Shown piece after piece: positions 2,439 to 11,792 of a stretch of 64,000 nucleotides of DNA. The notes beneath the pieces were generated by a model. That model did no database searches. It had not been told where the DNA came from and saw only the letters and a list, made by a program, of their open reading frames with translations. The stretch spans positions 1 through 64,000 of IMG/VR virus record IMGVR_UViG_3300046665_000589; one strand, written 5' to 3'. Position 1 is the first letter of the stretch. Each line of letters opens with the position of its first letter. Source of the stretch: a virus. The position numbers and the translations under genes were made by a program.

Positions 2439-3427
2439 TGACCCAACTGCAGCCCACCTCCGCCATCAAGGCCGAGTTCAACCCCGACACCGCGCGCTAC
2501 CCGCTGATGGGCTTTCGCAAGGTCGACGGCGTGCGCGCCAGCCACCTGATCGGCTTCTTCCACGGCCGCTCGATGGACCCGTTCAAGAACACCGCGCTGA
2601 ACGCGAAGTTCAACGGCGCCGGCTATGCCGGCTTCGACGGCGAGCTGACCATCGACGGCCTGCTCACCGACGAGACGCTCGACGGCGAGACCCTGTGCAG
2701 CCTGACCACCGGCCTGACCAACCGCGAGAAGATCAAGAAGGGCGAGACCGAGCTGCCCACGAACGCCGTGTGGAACCTGTTCGACTACCTGGCGCCTGAT
2801 ACGGTCCATCTGGAGTACCAGGAACGTTACACCGCCCTGGCCTCGGTGTTGGACCACCCTTGCGCGCCGCCGCATGTCCGGCTGTTGCCGTTCGTCTGGA
2901 TCAACAACCCGGACGAGGCGCGCGCCTGGATCGTCGACTGCCTTGAGAAGCATTACGAAGGCGCGATCTTCCGCGATCCGACGGCCAAACACAAGTCGGG
3001 CCGCGCCACGGCGACGAAAAACGACTTCTGGCGCTACAAGCCGGTGTCGGACAAGGATGCGATCGTGCTCGACGTCTACGAGGCCGAGCAGAACAACAAC
3101 GTCGCGACCACCAACAGCCGCGGGCGCACCGAGCGCTCCTCGCACCAGGAGAACAAGGTCGGCAAGGGTGTGGCCGGCGGCTTCATCGCGCTTGACGTCG
3201 TGACCGGGAAGACCATCCGCGTGCCGTGCGGCCGCATGAAGCAGACCGAGCGCGCCGAGGTGTGGGCCGACCGGGCGGCGTACCGCGGGCGCCCGTTCAA
3301 GTACGAGAGCCTGGATGTGGGCGTGCTGGACCAGCCGCGCCAGGCGCGCTGGATCTGCTGGCGCTCGAAGGAAGACATGACGCCGGCCGACCTGGCGCTG
3401 GTTGCGAAGCTGCAGGAGGCAGCATGA
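2438..3427 (+). CDS. ATP-dependent DNA ligase (T7-like)
   Basis: Seals nicks in duplex DNA through a lysyl-AMP intermediate. The nucleotidyltransferase motifs are in order: motif I RKVDGVR with adenylated Lys28, motif III GFDGEL near residues 67-72, motif IV YEGAIFRDP near 170, and motif V FWRYKP near 197-202. An OB-fold-like C-terminal half follows. At 329 residues it is close to the roughly 360 residues of T7-type ligases. It overlaps both neighbours by a few bases, indicating coupled translation in the replication operon. Confidence 0.93.
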   Translation: MTQLQPTSAIKAEFNPDTARYPLMGFRKVDGVRASHLIGFFHGRSMDPFKNTALNAKFNGAGYAGFDGELTIDGLLTDETLDGETLCSLTTGLTNREKIKKGETELPTNAVWNLFDYLAPDTVHLEYQERYTALASVLDHPCAPPHVRLLPFVWINNPDEARAWIVDCLEKHYEGAIFRDPTAKHKSGRATATKNDFWRYKPVSDKDAIVLDVYEAEQNNNVATTNSRGRTERSSHQENKVGKGVAGGFIALDVVTGKTIRVPCGRMKQTERAEVWADRAAYRGRPFKYESLDVGVLDQPRQARWICWRSKEDMTPADLALVAKLQEAA

Positions 3428-3663
3428 AGCTCGCCGACGTTAAGTTCCACACGGAATACCTGCACCGCGAATGGGGGCGCGTGCTGGTCCTCGGCTGCCA
3501 CACCTTCGACGGCGCTTGCCTGATCATCGAGCGCATGTCGACCACCGACCCGGACGACGATGACCTCGTACTCGACGCCTGCGAGGCCAGTGACCTGTCG
3601 CCGGCCGAAGGCAGCCTATGGCCGTATCTGAGCTTTACCTCGCCACCGAAGGAGGTCGCATGA
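3424..3663 (+). CDS. Hypothetical protein, 79 aa
   Basis: Unrecognised. It overlaps the ligase stop by ATGA. It has a beta-strand-rich start (GRVLVLGCHTFDGACLIIERM) and a very acidic centre (DPDDDDLVLDACEASD), with no membrane segment. It is translationally coupled to both neighbours inside the replication operon. Confidence 0.7.
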   Translation: MKLADVKFHTEYLHREWGRVLVLGCHTFDGACLIIERMSTTDPDDDDLVLDACEASDLSPAEGSLWPYLSFTSPPKEVA

Positions 3664-3860
3664 TCGAAGTCTTCTCGCGCCCGGACCTTGCACAGATCGA
3701 CGACGCCGACCTGCAGGGCCTGTTGAAGCGGCACATCGAAAGCACCACCGGCCGCAAGGTCGTGGGTGACGTCGGGATCGAGGTGGAGCATGTCGAGCGT
3801 CTCGGGCGCCGGCGCACCACCGAGTACACCGCCGTCTGCGAGCTGGCCGACGCGCAGTAA
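3660..3860 (+). CDS. Hypothetical protein, 66 aa
   Basis: Unrecognised small protein. The chosen start (MIEVFSRPDL) overlaps the preceding stop by ATGA. An in-frame upstream ATG at 3618 would add 14 residues but lies deep inside the previous gene. It is predicted alpha/beta and is followed by a 57-base gap before thymidylate synthase. Confidence 0.65.
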   Translation: MIEVFSRPDLAQIDDADLQGLLKRHIESTTGRKVVGDVGIEVEHVERLGRRRTTEYTAVCELADAQ

Positions 3861-3917
3861 CACCGGGAAGCCGCGCCCCGAACTTGCGCGGCACAACAAC
3901 TACAAATCCAAGAGCCC

Positions 3918-4802
3918 ATGAAACAATACCTGAACCTTTTGCAGGACATCCTGGACAACGGCGTCCGCCAAGGCAACCGCACTGGCATCGACACCTTGAG
4001 TCTGCCCGGCGCCATGCTCAAGTTCGACCTGCGCGACGGCTTCCCGGCCGTCACCACCAAGAAGCTGGCCTTCAAGCAGGTCGTCGGCGAGCTGATTGGC
4101 TTCCTGCGCGGCGTGACCAGCGCGGCCGACTTCCGCGCGCTCGGCTGCACCGTGTGGGACCAGAACGCCAACGAGAATGCGGCGTGGCTGACGAATCTGG
4201 CGCGCCGCGGCGAGGATGATCTGGGGCGGGTCTACGGCGCGCAGTGGCGTCGTTGGACTGCTCACGCCAGATGCGGTGACGATTTCGTTATCGAGAATTA
4301 TATTGACCAGATTGCCGTCGCTCTCGACACGCTGCGCTACAACCCGTACAGCCGCCGCATCATCGTCAACGCCTGGAACGCCGCCGAACTTGACCAGGCC
4401 GCGCTGCCTCCCTGCCACGTGCTGTTCCAGCTGCTGCCGCACGTCGAATCGAAGGTGCTGCACATGACGATGTACCAGCGTAGCTGCGACATGTTCCTCG
4501 GCGTGCCGTTCAACATCGCCAGCTACGCGCTGCTGATCGAACTGTTCGCCGCCTGGTCCGGCTATACCGCCGGCACCCTGACCATGTTCCTGGCCGACGC
4601 TCACATCTACGTCAACCACATCGAGCAGGTCAAGGAGCAGCTGACGCGCGAGCCGCTGCCGCTGCCGCGTCTGCTCCTGGATATTCCGGAGCGCGCGGTT
4701 GACATGGAGCTCGAATCGCTGCTGCGCCACCTGGAGCCGCGCCGCATCGCGCTGCTCGACTACCAATCTCACCCGGCGATCAAAGCGCCGATGGCCGTAT
4801 GA
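3918..4802 (+). CDS. thyA: Thymidylate synthase (ThyA type)
   Basis: Converts dUMP and methylenetetrahydrofolate to dTMP and dihydrofolate, raising the thymidine pool for phage DNA synthesis. The active-site cysteine is Cys166 in LPPCHVLFQ, followed by the dUMP-binding block QRSCDMFLGVPFNIASYALL. The N-terminal RTGIDTLSLPG loop and the C-terminal APMAV end are both present, the latter matching the conserved C-terminus that closes over the active site. At 294 residues it is somewhat longer than the 264-residue E. coli enzyme, mostly from a middle insertion. Its stop overlaps the next start (ATGA). Confidence 0.96.
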   Translation: MKQYLNLLQDILDNGVRQGNRTGIDTLSLPGAMLKFDLRDGFPAVTTKKLAFKQVVGELIGFLRGVTSAADFRALGCTVWDQNANENAAWLTNLARRGEDDLGRVYGAQWRRWTAHARCGDDFVIENYIDQIAVALDTLRYNPYSRRIIVNAWNAAELDQAALPPCHVLFQLLPHVESKVLHMTMYQRSCDMFLGVPFNIASYALLIELFAAWSGYTAGTLTMFLADAHIYVNHIEQVKEQLTREPLPLPRLLLDIPERAVDMELESLLRHLEPRRIALLDYQSHPAIKAPMAV

Positions 4803-4961: not shown

Positions 4962-5414
4962 ATGGCAAGCATCGGACAACGCGGCAAGTGGGCCGAGGAC
5001 CAGGTGCGCAGCTGGATGAAGAAGCGCAGCGACGCCGACGCCCGCTTCGCATTCAACCGCTACCCGGACGCGCGCGCCGGCTCCCTGCAGTCGGCGCCGT
5101 CCGACTTCGAGGCGTCGTGCCGCGGCACCCACTTCAAGGTCGAGGTCAAGGAGGTGAAGATCACCACCGTCGCGACGCGCCGGCTGCCGCAGGCGAATTT
5201 CTCGGTCGACAAGGTCGCGCGCATGAACAAGTGGCGGTTTGCGGGCGACCAGTGCTGGGTGGTGGTCTGCCACCGGGGCGAGGGGCGGGTGCAGGAGTGG
5301 CGGCTGGTGCCTCTGGACGTCTTCCTGGATACGGCGCCGTCCTGGGACGTGGGCATGTTCAAGGCCTACCCCAAGGTCGGCGACGTGATGGAACAACTCT
5401 TTGGAGAAAAGTAA
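4962..5414 (+). CDS. Putative PD-(D/E)XK-fold nuclease (resolvase/VRR-like)
   Basis: A small DNA nuclease candidate. The N-terminus has a GKWAEDQVRSW helix like those before the catalytic core of RecU/VRR-type phage nucleases. Next comes SAPSDFE (candidate catalytic Asp, residues 44-50), then a strand EVKEVK (residues 61-66) matching the ExK part of the motif. The length (150 residues) suits Holliday-junction resolvase-like or repair nucleases. It sits between thymidylate synthase and the SbcD-like gene, in keeping with recombination-dependent replication. The assignment rests on motif spacing only. Confidence 0.65.
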   Translation: MASIGQRGKWAEDQVRSWMKKRSDADARFAFNRYPDARAGSLQSAPSDFEASCRGTHFKVEVKEVKITTVATRRLPQANFSVDKVARMNKWRFAGDQCWVVVCHRGEGRVQEWRLVPLDVFLDTAPSWDVGMFKAYPKVGDVMEQLFGEK

Positions 5415-5415
5415 C

Positions 5416-6483
5416 ATGAGACTAACCGTACTGAACGACTGGCACATCGGCGCCGTCCGCTCGGCCGGCACCACCCTGGCCACGGCCTACCAACTGCGCC
5501 TCGACCTGCTGCAGCAGTTCGAGGACACGCTGGCCGACATCGACACCGACCTGATGATCCTGGGCGACCTGTTCGACGGCCCGGACATCAGCAAGGCCGA
5601 CCTGCTGCGCACTTACCAGATCCTGCGTGACTGGTTGGTGCGTACGGGCAAGCGGCTGTACCTCGTGAATGGTAACCACGACCTGTCGAAGAACTCGACC
5701 AATTTTTCCAGCTTTCAGTTCCTGGCCGAACTGCTGGTGAGCGAGTGGCGCGGCGGCGAGCAGGGTGACTGGGTCATCCACATCACCGAAGGCACGATGA
5801 CGCCGCACGGCTATGTGATCCCGCACGTAGCCAACCAGGACCTGTTCAACGTCGAGCTGTCCAAGGTACCCGAGTGCGACCACCTGTTCGTGCACTGCAA
5901 CTACGACAACGGCTTCGCCGCGGAGAAGGACCACTCGCTGAACCTCTCGCGGGAGCAGGCGGAAAGCCTGCCAGTGCGCCACATCGTGTTCGCTCACGAG
6001 CACCAAGCGCGGGAAGAGTTGGACGGCAAAGTGCTCGTCATCGGTAACCAGACGCCCTCGTCGGTCAGCGACTGCCTGAACAACGACGTCAAGTCGCTGC
6101 TGGTCGTCCACCCGCCGACCCGGGAAGGAAACAAGACCCGATGGATTCAGGTGCGGCGCATTACCTGGCAGGCCGACGGCGACTTCTCCGAGCAGGACTG
6201 GCGCGAGCTGGTCGACACCGGCCGCTTCATCCGCGTGGTCGGCACCGCCACCGCGGCCGAAGCGAACCAGGTGGTCAACACGATCGCGCGCTTTCGCAGC
6301 ACGGCCAAGGCGCTCGTGATCACCAACGCCGTCAGGATCGAGGGCGTCAGCGACGGCGAGGAGTTCAGCCTCACCCACGAGCAGGTCACCAGCTTCAACG
6401 TGCGCGAAGCCTTGCGCGAGTACCTGACCGACGAAGAAAACCAGAAGATCGACAAACTGAAGGAAGAACAATATGCTGCTTGA
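5416..6483 (+). CDS. SbcD/Mre11-like recombination nuclease subunit (T4 gp47-like)
   Basis: Metallophosphoesterase nuclease that pairs with the following SbcC-like ATPase to process DNA ends. The five metal-binding motifs are visible in order: NDWHIG (residues 7-12), LGDLFDG, NGNHDLS, LFVHCNY and AHEHQARE. The start at 5416 is preceded by GGAG at a good distance; an alternative in-frame start at 5401 would add five residues. The 3' end overlaps the ATPase start by 11 bases, as expected for a stoichiometric complex. Confidence 0.93.
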   Translation: MRLTVLNDWHIGAVRSAGTTLATAYQLRLDLLQQFEDTLADIDTDLMILGDLFDGPDISKADLLRTYQILRDWLVRTGKRLYLVNGNHDLSKNSTNFSSFQFLAELLVSEWRGGEQGDWVIHITEGTMTPHGYVIPHVANQDLFNVELSKVPECDHLFVHCNYDNGFAAEKDHSLNLSREQAESLPVRHIVFAHEHQAREELDGKVLVIGNQTPSSVSDCLNNDVKSLLVVHPPTREGNKTRWIQVRRITWQADGDFSEQDWRELVDTGRFIRVVGTATAAEANQVVNTIARFRSTAKALVITNAVRIEGVSDGEEFSLTHEQVTSFNVREALREYLTDEENQKIDKLKEEQYAA

Positions 6484-8674
6484 CCTACACGTCGAGAACT
6501 TCCGCAAGCACGTGGACACCACTGTCCACTTCACGCCTGGCATCAACGCGATCCGTGCCGCCAACGAGGCCGGAAAAAGTACACTGCTTGAAGCGCTGGC
6601 CTACGCCTACTTCGGTACGACCGGCATCAAGAAGGGCGAAACCATCGACGACGTCGTCACCTACGGCGTGCCGACCGCCAAGCTGCGTGTCGAGCACGGC
6701 TTCGCGCTGGGCGGTGCGAAGTACCGCGTCACCCGCTCGCCCAAGGGTGCCGAGCTGTATGCCAACGGCAACGACAAGCCGCTCGTCACCGGGCAGAAGG
6801 AAGTCACCAAGTACATCGAGCGCCTGTTCGGCACGTCGCAGGACATGGCAGCCAAGCTGATGCTGGCACGCCAGAAGGACCTGGGCGGCGCGCTGGCCGG
6901 CGGCCCGACCGAGGCCGGCAAGATGATCGAGAGCCTGGCCGACCTCGACCTGATCGACGAGCTGATCGGGCTGGTGAGCGAGAAGCTGCCGTCCGGCGAT
7001 ACCGGCGCCGTCAAGGGTACGGTCGAGTTCCTCAAGGGCGAGGCCACGCCGTGCGAGATGCCGGACCTTGGGCCGCTGGAAGAGGCAGTTGTCGACGCCG
7101 AGGGCTCCAGCAACACTGCGATTCAGGGCTATACCGAGGCCAAGTCGATCCTGAACGACCTGCCGGTCGCCGCCGCCCGCGGCACCTTGCAGGACGAGCA
7201 CACCCTGAAGACCGCGATCGCCAGCCGCAGCAGCCAGATCGCGACCCTGCAGGATGCGCTGGAGGCGAAGCTGCCGGTGGTGCCGGACGAGGCGGAAATC
7301 GCGGCCTGCCGCCAGAAGGTCGAGCAGCAAAAGCAGCTGGCCGTCGCCACGCGCCTGCACGCCGAGCTCAAGGCGGCCAACATCGTCGAGCTGTGGGACG
7401 AGTCCTTGGCCTCGCTGCATGACGAGGTCGCCAAGACCGAAGGGGAGCTCAATGCGGCGACCGACCGCGTCACGGCAACCCAGACCAGCATCACCAACCT
7501 GGAGGACAAGCTGCGCAAGGCCTCCTCCGCCTGCGCGGTGCGCCGGGCCCAGCTCGAAGGCAAGCTGGTCAAGGAGGAGAGTTGCGCATTTTGCGGCAAG
7601 GATCTGAAGGACATTCCCGAGGTCGCGCTGGTCAACAACCCGCTCAACGCCGAGCTGGTCGCGCTGAAGGCCGATTTCGACGGGGTGCAGGCCGAGGTGG
7701 CCGACGCGCTCGACGTGCTGCGCACCAGCCTGGTATGCCTCAACCGGCAGCGCGCCACCCACGAGGCGTACCTGAAAGAACTGCGCGCGGTGCTGGTCGC
7801 GCACGACCGCGCCGAGCTGCTGTTCGCCAAGGCGGCTGCCTACATCACGCTTGATCGCAAGGGTGTGCCGGCCACGTGGTCCTGGACCGGGCCGGTCGAG
7901 GGCGACAGCGTCGACCACGGCGCCAAGCTGCGCGAACTGGAAGCCGACCGCGACAAGGCGCTGGCGGCCAAGGCGCGCCGCGACCAGCAGCAGGTGCAGC
8001 TGGTCGACCTGCAGAACCTGCAGGCGGCCGACACCGCCAAGCTGTCCGGGCTCGATACCGCAGCGGCGCGCGCCACCTTGCAGCGCGAGGAGGAGCAGAA
8101 GACGCGGGTCCAGCGGCTGCTGGACGCGGCGCAGCAGGCCGAGCGCGCGCTGGCCATCGCCAAGCAGGCGTTCGAGCTGGCGCGCGAGAAGCGCAACCAG
8201 CTGGTCGAGCGTGCCGAGAAGGCGAAGGCGCAGCTGGCCGCCGCCGAGGCGCAGCTGGCCGAAATCGAAGCCAACAACCTGCTGGTCAAGAAACTGCGCG
8301 CGGCGCGCCCGGCCATCACCGACAAGTTGTGGGGCATGGTGCTGGCCAACGTGTCGGCCAACTTGACCAAGGTGCGCGGCGAGGTGTCGACCATCACCCG
8401 GGTCGACGGCCGCTTCAAGATCAACGGCTACCCGGTCACCGGCCTGTCCGGTTCGGCCGAGGACGCGCTAGGCCTGGCCAACCGCATGGCGTTGACCCGC
8501 ACCTTCCTGCCCAACATCGACTTCCTGATGCTGGACGAGCCGGCCGCGGCGTGCAATGATGAGCGCGAAATCGCGATGCTCGGCCTCCTGGCCACCTGCG
8601 GCTTCGACCAGGTCATCCTGGTCACGCACTCGGACTTGTCCGACGCGTTTGCCGCCAACATCATCACTTTCTAA
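6473..8674 (+). CDS. SbcC/Rad50-like SMC ATPase (T4 gp46-like)
   Basis: ATPase partner of the SbcD-like nuclease. The N-terminal Walker A is NEAGKST (residues 31-37). Two long coiled-coil arms flank a zinc hook CAFC (Cys371 and Cys374). The C-terminal lobe has the ABC signature LSGSAEDALGLANR and Walker B FLMLDEPAAAC, then an H-loop-like VTHSD. At 733 residues it is shorter than E. coli SbcC (about 1,050) but of the order of phage gp46-type proteins. It probably acts in end resection and recombination-dependent replication. Confidence 0.94.
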   Translation: MLLDLHVENFRKHVDTTVHFTPGINAIRAANEAGKSTLLEALAYAYFGTTGIKKGETIDDVVTYGVPTAKLRVEHGFALGGAKYRVTRSPKGAELYANGNDKPLVTGQKEVTKYIERLFGTSQDMAAKLMLARQKDLGGALAGGPTEAGKMIESLADLDLIDELIGLVSEKLPSGDTGAVKGTVEFLKGEATPCEMPDLGPLEEAVVDAEGSSNTAIQGYTEAKSILNDLPVAAARGTLQDEHTLKTAIASRSSQIATLQDALEAKLPVVPDEAEIAACRQKVEQQKQLAVATRLHAELKAANIVELWDESLASLHDEVAKTEGELNAATDRVTATQTSITNLEDKLRKASSACAVRRAQLEGKLVKEESCAFCGKDLKDIPEVALVNNPLNAELVALKADFDGVQAEVADALDVLRTSLVCLNRQRATHEAYLKELRAVLVAHDRAELLFAKAAAYITLDRKGVPATWSWTGPVEGDSVDHGAKLRELEADRDKALAAKARRDQQQVQLVDLQNLQAADTAKLSGLDTAAARATLQREEEQKTRVQRLLDAAQQAERALAIAKQAFELAREKRNQLVERAEKAKAQLAAAEAQLAEIEANNLLVKKLRAARPAITDKLWGMVLANVSANLTKVRGEVSTITRVDGRFKINGYPVTGLSGSAEDALGLANRMALTRTFLPNIDFLMLDEPAAACNDEREIAMLGLLATCGFDQVILVTHSDLSDAFAANIITF

Positions 8675-8686
8675 AGGAACCACCAC

Positions 8687-8938
8687 ATGGAAATCATCAA
8701 TCACCCCGCCTGCACGCACAGCCTCGGCGCGCCGGCAGACATGCAGGACGGCAGCTGCGAGGCGCTGCCGGTGGCGTACCAGGAGACGGATCACGGCGTG
8801 TTCGCGCTGTCGTTCTGGAAGCCGACGCCCGAAGAACTGGCCGACCTGAACTCGGGCCGGGCCATCGTGCTGGGTGTGCGCGCCGTCGGGCGCCAGCACC
8901 CGGTCGTGTTCCTGTCGACCACCAAGGATCCAGTATGA
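8687..8938 (+). CDS. Hypothetical protein, 83 aa
   Basis: Unrecognised. It has a clear ribosome-binding site (AAAGGAACCACCAC then ATG), a form of leader that recurs before many genes near the right end of the window. The sequence is mostly beta with an acidic middle and no motif. Its stop overlaps the next start by ATGA. Confidence 0.7.
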   Translation: MEIINHPACTHSLGAPADMQDGSCEALPVAYQETDHGVFALSFWKPTPEELADLNSGRAIVLGVRAVGRQHPVVFLSTTKDPV

Positions 8939-9144
8939 GCGAGGTCCAGATCATCGACGGCTGGATGGAGATCGACGCGTTCTGCGAGAAGTACCACCAG
9001 AGCAAGAACACGATCCACAAGCGCGTGCATGACGGCGTTTGGCCGCGCGGCGAGTTCTACTCGTCGCCGTCCGGCGGCGTCGCCTACATCCACGTTGAGA
9101 AGGCGTGCAAGTGGTTGGAAGTGCGCGGGAAGCTGAAGGTGTAA
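8935..9144 (+). CDS. Small helix-turn-helix DNA-binding protein (excisionase/AlpA-like fold)
   Basis: 69 residues with an N-terminal winged-helix-type HTH (IDAFCEKYHQSKNTIHKRVH, residues 12-31), then a beta hairpin with WPRGEFYSSPSGG and a helix ending KACKWLE. This order resembles excisionase-like and MerR-superfamily mini-regulators of phages. It is the last gene of the rightward replication operon, directly before a strong terminator. It could be an architectural or transcriptional regulator. With no integrase in the window, an excision role is not supported. Confidence 0.7.
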   Translation: MSEVQIIDGWMEIDAFCEKYHQSKNTIHKRVHDGVWPRGEFYSSPSGGVAYIHVEKACKWLEVRGKLKV

Positions 9145-9171: not shown

Positions 9172-9204
9172 AATATGCCGCCGTCAGGCGGCATATTTCT
9201 TTTT
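9172..9204 (+). terminator. Rho-independent terminator ending the replication operon
   Basis: An 11-bp perfect stem (arms 9172-9182 and 9187-9197) with a 4-base loop, followed by TTCTTTTT. It lies just after the HTH gene stop and overlaps the 3' end of the convergent phosphoesterase gene. A second short palindrome (TTCGCG-GTT-CGCGAA, 9151-9165) lies immediately upstream. Confidence 0.9.
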
Positions 9205-10764
9205 GACGTCGGCGAGCGGCACGAATTGCTCGTCGAAGCAGCCGTCTTCGACGTTGTTGAGCAGCACCAGGCCATGCCAGTGCTTGTTGCCCTGCGGCCC
9301 CAGATAAGACTCAAGGTGTTCGTAGCAGTTGTGATGGCCGTAACCCTCGACCACCATCGTCTTAGCGTCAATCTCGATCTCGACAAACGCATCCTCGCCG
9401 ACCGGCACAATCGAGACGATACACTCAGCCTCGCTGGGACCTTGTACAGTAAGACTCCCCAACATCTCAGGAGAAAATTTGTCCAGCATCCTGGGCGGGC
9501 GAAGGGTGCCCAACACCTTGGCAATCGCGCGGGCACCTCCGCAGACGCGATACTGCCCAGCCGTCCTCGTAACTGCGCAATGGCTGCTGATGTCTACCCC
9601 ACAAACATCACGGAATGCCTCCTCGATACGCCGACATGTTGCAGGGTTGTGGGCCTCAGACTGGGCCAGAGCAAGCTGCACCACACTGCCTCCGGACGTC
9701 TTTCGATGACTTAACGAGCCCTCGCCGCAATACATTCCCGCAAGCCATCCAGACTGCCAGGACTGCACGTGTTCAAACTCATCAAGCAGGCGGACTACAC
9801 GAGTACCCCCACCCTTCTTACCTAGTGCAGACCTGTTGGTAACTCGCAACTGGTCAGTGCGCTTCCAGGCATAGAGGCTGCCGGAGTTTTTGGTGAACCA
9901 TAGGTGGTCGCCGGTCACACGGAAAACCTTACCACTGGATAAAGTGACATCGAACATCTCGCCTCGGGAATGCCTCAGCGCTGTAACCATACCGCTCTTG
10001 AAGCGTCGCTTTCGGCCTCGCTGACCGACGGCCGTAGCGAGCGGCCCCTCGTCGAAGCTGACGAGCCTGTCACCGACCTTGAGGTCCCCTAAGCGGACAT
10101 ACCGAAGATCCGAAGTAAGTACCTTATGTGATGGATGCATACAACTCCCGGCAATAATAGACGTAATTCTACGCCCATCAGCACGGTACGCAGAAGCCAT
10201 CTGGCGACCTTGTTGATGCCCTGCAACACAGGACATAAATTTCTTGTTCATCTGCGCCTGGGCGGACGACGCCGGCCGGCCCATGACCCCGGTCTGAAAG
10301 TAGTGGCTGAAGGCCACCCCGCCAATCACCACCACCTTAAGGAACTCATGCACCTCCCAACCAAACTGCGCGTAGCCCAGATCCTCGAGCCCGATCGCGC
10401 CGGCCAGCATCGGCTCCTCGTTGATGGTGCGCAGGATGCGCTCCTCGTGGTTGCCCAGCGTGAGCACCAGGCGCGGCCGGTAGATGGCGTGTTTGCTGGC
10501 CAGGCGGCGCAGGTTGTACTCGCGCAGCGGTCCCAGCAGGGCTTCCATGCCGGCGCGCGCGGCCTCAATGTCGGCCCGGTAGCGCCGGCCTTCGAACGAC
10601 TTCTTGCCCTTGTCGTAGCTGGAGAGCGACGGCATGTCTGCGAAGTCACCAATACACACGACGACGTCTGGCTTCTCCGCTACGATCATGCGCCCGATGC
10701 AGCGTAGGAACTCGAGGTCGTCGCCGGGGCGGACCTGGGTGTCGGGTATGACGAGAATATTCAT
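9184..10764 (-). CDS. Metallophosphoesterase interrupted by an in-frame intein
   Basis: The 526-residue precursor should splice to a 254-residue calcineurin-like phosphoesterase. Phosphoesterase motifs lie in the N-extein: IPDTQ (6-10), GDFAD (39-43), GNHEER (104-109), FSHYF (152-156) and GHQQG (182-186). The intein covers residues 208-479. The C-extein resumes at Cys480, giving AGS-CYEHLESYLG across the junction. The gene is last in the leftward lysis operon and its start overlaps the previous stop (TGATG). The target is unknown; phage enzymes of this fold act on nucleic acid ends or nucleotides. Confidence 0.92.
   Translation of the reverse strand: MNILVIPDTQVRPGDDLEFLRCIGRMIVAEKPDVVVCIGDFADMPSLSSYDKGKKSFEGRRYRADIEAARAGMEALLGPLREYNLRRLASKHAIYRPRLVLTLGNHEERILRTINEEPMLAGAIGLEDLGYAQFGWEVHEFLKVVVIGGVAFSHYFQTGVMGRPASSAQAQMNKKFMSCVAGHQQGRQMASAYRADGRRITSIIAGSCMHPSHKVLTSDLRYVRLGDLKVGDRLVSFDEGPLATAVGQRGRKRRFKSGMVTALRHSRGEMFDVTLSSGKVFRVTGDHLWFTKNSGSLYAWKRTDQLRVTNRSALGKKGGGTRVVRLLDEFEHVQSWQSGWLAGMYCGEGSLSHRKTSGGSVVQLALAQSEAHNPATCRRIEEAFRDVCGVDISSHCAVTRTAGQYRVCGGARAIAKVLGTLRPPRMLDKFSPEMLGSLTVQGPSEAECIVSIVPVGEDAFVEIEIDAKTMVVEGYGHHNCYEHLESYLGPQGNKHWHGLVLLNNVEDGCFDEQFVPLADVKKKYAA
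9328..10143 (-). other. Intein with LAGLIDADG-like endonuclease domain (272 aa)
   Basis: Protein-splicing element. The first residue is Cys208 (CMHPSHKVLTSD, splicing block A), and block B is VTGDHLWF with the TxxH pair at 284-287. A LAGLIDADG-like helix reads WLAGMYCGEG (340-349). The C-terminal block is VVEGYGHHN, ending in the His-Asn pair 478-479, followed by Cys480 as the +1 nucleophile. All residues needed for class 1 splicing are present. Only one LAGLIDADG motif is clear, so nuclease activity is uncertain. The DNA looks less GC-rich than the extein, which suggests horizontal insertion. Confidence 0.93.
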
Positions 10765-10931
10765 CAGTCCTCGGCTTCGCGCTGCTCTCGGCGCGCCGCG
10801 GTGAGCGCCAGCAGCTCGCGCTCGCAGCGCCGATAGTGCGCCAGCAGCTTCTCGCTGATCAGGTGCAGCGGCGAGTCGTCCGGCTCGTCCGCCAGCTGGT
10901 GCAGCTCAAGGAGTGGTGCCGTAGAATCCAT
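10764..10931 (-). CDS. Hypothetical protein, 55 aa
   Basis: A short, highly charged, mostly helical protein (DEPDDSPLHLISEKLLAHYR, then an Arg/Glu-rich tail ending REAED). It overlaps the end of the Rz gene by 26 bases, and its stop shares bases with the phosphoesterase start (TGATG), so it is likely to be translated in series. No family is recognised. Confidence 0.6.
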   Translation of the reverse strand: MDSTAPLLELHQLADEPDDSPLHLISEKLLAHYRRCERELLALTAARREQREAED

Positions 10932-11418
10932 TGGCGATCACCCACACTTGCAACTTGTCCAGTTGCAGCGCCAGTGCGTCGGCGCGCTTCGTCATGGCTC
11001 GAAGGCGGCCTTCAATTCGTTCAGGAAGCTCGACGGTGGCGGGGCCGGTTGCATCAGGTCCGCCGGTGCCTGCGGCTTGGGCGGGTCCGGCAGCGGCGCC
11101 GGGACAAACGGTTGCTGGGATGCGCAGCCGGTGATCGCGCCGAGCAAGGTCAGCAGCGTAATCAGCGTTGACAGCTTTAAGAGATTGAGCATAATCGTTC
11201 GACGCCTTGCGGGCGATCGCCTCATAACGGAGTTGGTCGGCACTGCGCTTGCTGACTTCGGCCAGCAGCGCGCCACGCTGGGCTTCCTGCAGCTGCAGCT
11301 TTTCCTTCTGCCAGTCGGCGCGTTCGGACTTGGTGCCGACGTGCACACCGCCAAAGAAGGCGGCGATCGCCAGCACAACGACGCCCAGCGCGGTAGCCAG
11401 GATGGCTTCGATCTTCAT
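10906..11418 (-). CDS. Rz-like i-spanin (inner-membrane subunit)
   Basis: Outer-membrane disruption protein for the last step of Gram-negative lysis. Start MKIEAILATALGVVVLAIAA gives one N-terminal transmembrane helix (about residues 5-25). A long periplasmic coiled coil follows (SERADWQKEKLQLQEAQRGA onward), the usual i-spanin layout. An Rz1-type lipoprotein gene is nested in another frame (10992-11192). The start at 11418 overlaps the upstream stop (ATGA); a GTG/ATG further up would fall in the previous gene. Confidence 0.9.
   Translation of the reverse strand: MKIEAILATALGVVVLAIAAFFGGVHVGTKSERADWQKEKLQLQEAQRGALLAEVSKRSADQLRYEAIARKASNDYAQSLKAVNADYAADLARRDHRLRIPATVCPGAAAGPAQAAGTGGPDATGPATVELPERIEGRLRAMTKRADALALQLDKLQVWVIANGFYGTTP
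10992..11192 (-). CDS. Rz1-like o-spanin lipoprotein, nested inside Rz
   Basis: 66 residues. A signal peptide (MLNLLKLSTLITLLTLLGAI) ends in a lipobox with the lipidated Cys at residue 23 (ITGC). The mature part is short and proline-rich (FVPAPLPDPPKPQAP), typical of Rz1. It is read in a different frame, wholly inside the Rz gene, as in lambda. It should be anchored in the outer membrane and pair with Rz to fuse the two membranes. Confidence 0.92.
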   Translation of the reverse strand: MLNLLKLSTLITLLTLLGAITGCASQQPFVPAPLPDPPKPQAPADLMQPAPPPSSFLNELKAAFEP

Positions 11419-11792
11419 GCTGGCTCCCGGCGGCAAAAGAACGGCAGCGCGTAGAAGCGGCCGGGATAGCCGATCCGCATCTTCTTTTCGTTGTGCAGCT
11501 CGATGAAGCGCTGCTGACCGGCCTCGTCCAGATGATAAAAATAAAACTTGTGGCCGGGTGCCTTAACCTCTCCTGCGTCGTGCAGGTAGGCTTTGTAGCC
11601 CTTGTCAGTCGGCCCGACCTCGCCGCCAGCCTCCACGAACGCCAGGAATGCCTCCTGGCTCACGCTGCCGCAGTAGGTGCAGGTGCCGTCCGCGCGGTAC
11701 TCATCCAGGTTCGAGCCGCTCATCCTCATCGGCGAGTCGTCGCGATCCATGCCCTGCACGCGGCGGTAGCCGCAGGTATATTTGTCCGTCAT
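11415..11792 (-). CDS. Hypothetical protein, 125 aa
   Basis: Unrecognised. The N-terminal third is basic, with a cysteine pair (CTYCGS, residues 38-43) that could bind zinc with Cys7. The rest is mixed, ending in an aromatic-rich segment. It overlaps the endolysin stop upstream and the Rz start downstream by ATGA, so it belongs to the lysis operon. No signal peptide or membrane helix is visible. Confidence 0.7.
   Translation of the reverse strand: MTDKYTCGYRRVQGMDRDDSPMRMSGSNLDEYRADGTCTYCGSVSQEAFLAFVEAGGEVGPTDKGYKAYLHDAGEVKAPGHKFYFYHLDEAGQQRFIELHNEKKMRIGYPGRFYALPFFCRREPA

Follow-up and report, generated by a model that had tools for sequence, protein, structure and literature searches.

Inteins are already known from the family of phage metallophosphoesterases (MPEs) considered here, since the mycobacteriophage RDF inteins (Bxb1 gp47-type family), found at GNHD, were described in 2016 and the one in Bethlehem gp51 was shown to splice (both in the consulted part of PMC5050341). 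According to the same part of that paper the Pham3880-g intein splices in a reporter in E. coli, and no test of its endonuclease is reported there. As for the enzymes themselves, Bxb1 gp47 is an RDF that is also needed for phage DNA replication, D29 gp66 is a cyclic nucleotide phosphodiesterase and A10ZJ24 gp48 is a counter-defence MPE (PMC12287305). A paper on crAss-like phages names both inteins and a metallophosphatase, with no link between them in the consulted part of its text.

The window, by which we mean the whole stretch of 64,000 nucleotides analysed, carries an intein that represents a newly found site for a known kind of element in a family already known to host inteins. The notion in the earlier note that a phosphoesterase is an unusual intein host is misleading in view of the RDF inteins of the same family described in 2016 (consulted part of PMC5050341), even if these occupy a different site, which was placed using LilBib (PP750957). 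The AGS/CYEH site itself appears to be undescribed in the open-access literature, intein databases lying outside that search. The evidence set out below makes it very probable that the element is a mobile, self-splicing class 1 intein with an apparently intact LAGLIDADG endonuclease, housed in an MPE that probably serves phage DNA replication or host takeover.

The intein and the gene it interrupts

The gene, its parts and the neighbouring spanin gene are located as follows:

9184..10764, minus strand: intein-containing calcineurin-like MPE gene, 526-aa precursor (ORF, phrog_221, PF00149)
10144..10764, minus strand: N-extein, residues 1-207, with the MPE motifs up to IIAGS (aligned to intein-free homologues and to the Fredward RDF)
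9328..10143, minus strand: intein of 272 aa, from Cys208 to Asn479 in precursor numbering (splice residues; absent from syntenic homologues; 15 distinct inteins at the site)
9430..9801, minus strand: single LAGLIDADG homing-endonuclease module, intein residues 115-238 (conserved residues, AF2, Foldseek, HMM)
9184..9327, minus strand: C-extein, 47 residues from Cys480 (CYEHLESYLGPQ...) and the stop codon (matches L010, L011, L013)
10906..11436, minus strand: Rz-like spanin gene just upstream of the MPE gene (phrog_1327 9e-12, DUF2514 1.2e-6)
10992-11378: candidate Rz1 embedded in the Rz-like gene (reading of the ORF)

The MPE open reading frame matches the phrog_221 profile with E=1.6e-50 and Pfam PF00149 with 24.3 bits (cut-off 21.5), and the motifs GDxxD, GNHE/D, H and GHxx align over the MPE core as in phrog_221 and Bxb1-gp47-type enzymes. 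The corresponding phrog_221 scores are 2e-54 for the intein-free homologue L010 and 1.1e-115 for the Fredward RDF (Bxb1 gp47 type), a core member of phrog_221 that is 30% identical to the window N-extein. A match to methylamine dehydrogenase (PDB, Pfam, NCBIfam) was below threshold and was dismissed as a chance match. Since the N-extein holds every recognisable MPE motif (DTQ, GDFAD, GNHE, SHYF and GHQQ) and the intein follows the strand that comes behind GHQQ, the unspliced precursor is probably inactive or impaired.

The earlier note had placed an intein at residues 208-479 (positions 10143-9328) with all splice residues present, and both the boundaries and the residues proved exact: Cys208 is the first residue, the intein ends in GHHN (His-His-Asn), Cys480 follows as the +1 residue, and block B is T284-G-D-H287 of the precursor, which gives the class 1 set C1, T77-G-D-H80, H271-N272 and C+1 in intein numbering. 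The AF2 model has a mean pLDDT of 79.6, with the splicing blocks mostly above 90, and its Foldseek matches are inteins and Hint structures. GC3 in the intein is 62.5%, while its exteins have 79% and 77%. Furthermore, intein-free homologues, found by a scan of IMG/VR and confirmed by tblastn matches that run straight across the site, are joined exactly at the intein boundaries (L010, L011, L013 and others; IIAGS/CYEH or equivalent). In the best of these, L010, which is 83% identical in its best segment, IIAGS is followed by CYEH with nothing between, which bears out the insertion point AGS/CYEH previously proposed. Colinearity between L010 and the window extends to both flanks of the site (10142-10765 corresponds to 4623-4000 and 9184-9331 to 4765-4618), with SbcC, a short HTH gene and a portion of Rz in unchanged order, and L011, L013 and L014 also match window DNA on either side. 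From this two-sided colinearity it follows that the group of the window phage includes sisters with an empty site, and because the syntenic L010 lacks exactly the intein segment, the resemblance to inteins is not due to chance. The segment is, judged by its residues and modelled fold, a real class 1 intein that is predicted to splice.

The class 1 route is suggested by the conserved residues, the fold and the splicing of a homologue, the Pham3880-g intein. Cys208 (Cys1) would attack the preceding Ser207-Cys208 bond with the help of T284 and H287 of block B, the thioester would pass to Cys480 (+1), and Asn479, aided by His478, would cyclise and thereby release the metallophosphoesterase, for which 207+47 residues give a predicted length of 254 aa, in agreement with the roughly 254 residues expected beforehand.

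Relatives of the intein and signs of movement

Further intein loci were found with an alignment of these inteins, near copies being removed before the count. Fifteen distinct inteins of environmental phages, the window's included, lie at one codon boundary, site A, between G[S/A] and CY; the others are 44-69% identical to the window's, and Cys1, the His of block B and the final His-His-Asn are retained throughout. The close relatives are all on metagenomic contigs and named phages carry distant ones only; in a set of 50,697 phage genomes no record matches 80% of the window protein in one place, so that no clear intein at the site was found there. The inteins that a scan of GTDB yielded were all distant and lay in genes of methylase type (L115-L117), none in an MPE, and the 93.5-kb record holds no second intein of the family. 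The distant relatives reside in a cluster C1 terminase-like protein, a Gordonia portal protein, an HNH protein, an RNase H-like exonuclease protein and DNA methylases. Those at L115:4473-6575 and L116:4341-6545 lie in genes that each encode a phage Dam-like methylase domain together with a GNAT-like domain, on an actinobacterial and a planctomycete contig.

Inteins interrupt the MPE family in two further motifs as well, since a related intein at L019:2764-4260 (intein 3211-3957) splits GVAY/CHFF immediately before the motif His and the third motif, GNHD, is occupied in mycobacteriophage RDFs (LilBib gp51). At L104:2386-3885 the intein (3001-3744) sits one codon upstream of site A, in IIAG/SFYQH, with Ser as the +1 residue. 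Its spliced product would be normal, since intein-free SFY alleles exist (Alcaligenes phage QDWS535, L042 and L069), and its place among the site A inteins in the intein tree (93/92, not a starred branch) suggests a one-codon shift inside that lineage. Tentatively, and as something short of an even chance, the whole may be read as a family of compact inteins, each with one LAGLIDADG module acting as a homodimer, that is still homing through phage MPEs and that in L104 moved by one codon, with a change of the +1 residue from Cys to Ser, at the Cys-less AGSFY.

Exteins and inteins have diverged to different degrees. The exteins of L001 and L007 are 89% identical and their inteins 49%, the values for L002 and L004 are 84% and 50%, and the opposite pattern is found in L004 and L095, with 63% identity between exteins and 80% between inteins. 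Between L004 and L006 the 606-nt N-extein shows 50 differences, the one nearest the intein lying 4 nt away from it; beyond that point the 786-bp intein and the C-extein are identical, and the following 400 bp contain few differences. This is the pattern expected from one-sided co-conversion in homing, although ordinary phage recombination could produce it as well. On the tree of exteins the window clusters with the intein-free L010, L011 and L013 (100/100), and on that of inteins its intein clusters with those of L001 and L002 (100/99), which belong to other MPE lineages. The extein tree requires 8 gains or losses of the intein (bootstrap 6-8), of which the starred branches alone force only 3. 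Past movement of related inteins between MPE alleles, repeated at site A, is on these comparisons well supported. In such movement the endonuclease would likely cut intein-free MPE genes at AGS/CYEH, whereupon repair would copy the intein in. The window contains no other copy of the homing site.

Endonuclease domain, host enzyme and alternative readings

The earlier note had observed one clear LAGLIDADG helix in the window intein, and the motif proves to read GWLAGMYCGEG. The note's further suggestion that the endonuclease may be degenerate finds no support, since the one-motif layout is that of the whole family: each of 23 relatives has exactly one motif, with the G-E-G and a Gln (Q47 of the domain) invariant. 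Modelled alone, the domain has an AF2 pLDDT of 85 and the order alpha-beta-beta-alpha-beta-beta-alpha, that is, the motif helix with the catalytic acidic residue and the full alpha-beta core of a LAGLIDADG enzyme. In Foldseek it pairs with about one half each of I-OnuI, I-DmoI and I-AniI at modest TM-scores of 0.4-0.5, and HMM profiles match both I-AniI halves (E=7e-6) and the homodimeric I-MsoI. We therefore set aside degeneracy as the default reading. Because one module with invariant Glu and Gln occurs in every homologue and is modelled as a complete fold, the domain is likely a complete single-module LAGLIDADG enzyme working as a homodimer, and it is apparently intact, with cleavage predicted. 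NG86 dN/dS was uninformative as to selection on the endonuclease, synonymous sites being saturated.

The description of the gene as a lysis-operon phosphoesterase is right as to location and doubtful as to function. The MPE gene is the last after those for a chitinase, an unknown protein and Rz, a neighbourhood common to sister phages. However, homologous MPEs of Methylophilales and Alcaligenes phages lie among the genes for a polymerase, an exonuclease and ribonucleotide reductase, and in the Alcaligenes phage the thymidylate synthase gene adjoins that of the MPE; moreover, the characterised MPEs act in excision, replication, counter-defence and nucleotide hydrolysis. No match to PF00239 or PF00589 occurs in the possibly incomplete 93.5-kb record, nor any recognisable serine integrase such as would place the enzyme among the serine-integrase RDFs. 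Since no integrase is recognisable and the gene is placed after the spanins, an RDF role is unlikely, and by analogy with its relatives the window MPE has its most likely role in phage DNA replication or host takeover, rather than in lysis or, given the lack of a recognisable integrase, excision. Elsewhere in the window, a phage gene pair of SbcD/SbcC type, made up of another metallophosphoesterase and an ATPase (5401-8674, plus strand), is convergent with the intein-bearing gene, and a 69-aa excisionase/HTH-like gene (8935-9144; phrog_2917, E=1e-4) lies just past it.

It might be argued that the segment is a normal domain or a Hint-type autoprocessing module of the phosphoesterase that does not excise itself, since the window protein alone matches the curated intein models only below their cut-offs (TIGR01445 E=0.001, Pfam Intein_splicing 0.029, NF038136 1.7e-7 over residues 207-481). 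We give this hardly any credence, since the segment is missing from homologues with codon precision, inteins of this family occur in unrelated genes as well (terminase, methylase, HNH protein), and conservation extends to C1, HN and C+1. Of the 23 family members, 19 match Pfam Intein_splicing at E<=1, the best at 9e-7. A more serious alternative, though still an unlikely one, is that the intein splices and is immobile, its endonuclease domain being a relic that no longer cuts. In agreement with this, the one motif compares with two in the tested BAKA TerL1-b and Bethlehem TerL1-c (consulted part of PMC5050341), position 6 of the motif is Cys in the window clade instead of the usual Asp, and no convincing pseudo-palindromic target is found in the flank, where the best candidate has 6 of 11 pairs and is off-centre. 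A relic is nevertheless in poor agreement with the one-motif layout shared by all 23 relatives, its unvarying Glu and Gln and its complete fold, with the lack of any observed domain deletion or internal stop, and with recent transfers, as indicated by the 0 differences in 786 bp between L004 and L006.

The intein could also be a regulatory switch that delays the phosphoesterase until late infection, as has been proposed for other phage inteins. The occurrence of inteins at conserved MPE motifs in three separate places, the position of the window gene in a late (lysis) operon and the tuned splicing that Kelley et al. argued for a mycobacteriophage RDF intein (consulted part of PMC5050341) are compatible with such a role, but sisters with the same operon position do without an intein and the patchy distribution suits a selfish element, and a switch therefore seems improbable, more so than an immobile intein. 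A mobile, self-splicing intein remains the preferred reading.

Relation to described inteins and endonucleases

The locus adds an apparently undescribed and well-populated insertion site to the known phage inteins, and one phage protein family, the MPEs, is seen to be invaded at three active-site motifs. Of greatest interest among the details are the displacement of L104 by one codon, with its changed nucleophile, and the consistent one-motif endonuclease. Close alleles with and without intein, together with L104, offer a practical test of homing when the target residue varies, and the same alleles could serve to test if an intein with just one LAGLIDADG motif acts as a dimeric nuclease.

With the I-MsoI/I-CreI type and one half of I-AniI, I-DmoI and I-OnuI the endonuclease domain of the window intein shares one module, a catalytic acidic residue and a Gln, but unlike these it sits inside an intein, and its dimer and target are predicted only. 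The closest intein in named phages is Pham3880-g (LRRHood gp245 and ScottMcG gp245, cluster C1 terminase-like), 32.5% identical over 272 aa (E=7e-32), which has the same single-LAGLIDADG layout but differs in its host gene, its +1 Ser and a penultimate His preceded by Thr. A10ZJ24 gp48 and Bxb1 gp47 are, like the window enzyme, calcineurin-like phage MPEs, but Bxb1 gp47 is an RDF, whereas the window MPE gene follows spanin genes in a possibly incomplete record with no recognisable serine or tyrosine integrase. No RDF intein is among the tblastn matches listed for the window intein. The RDF inteins of Bethlehem gp51 and LilBib gp51 likewise interrupt a conserved motif of a phrog_221 family protein, but at GNHD/SRARD instead of AGS/CYEH; they are larger, with two LAGLIDADG motifs reported (PMC12613952), and their penultimate residue is Gly (consulted part of PMC5050341) where the window intein has His.
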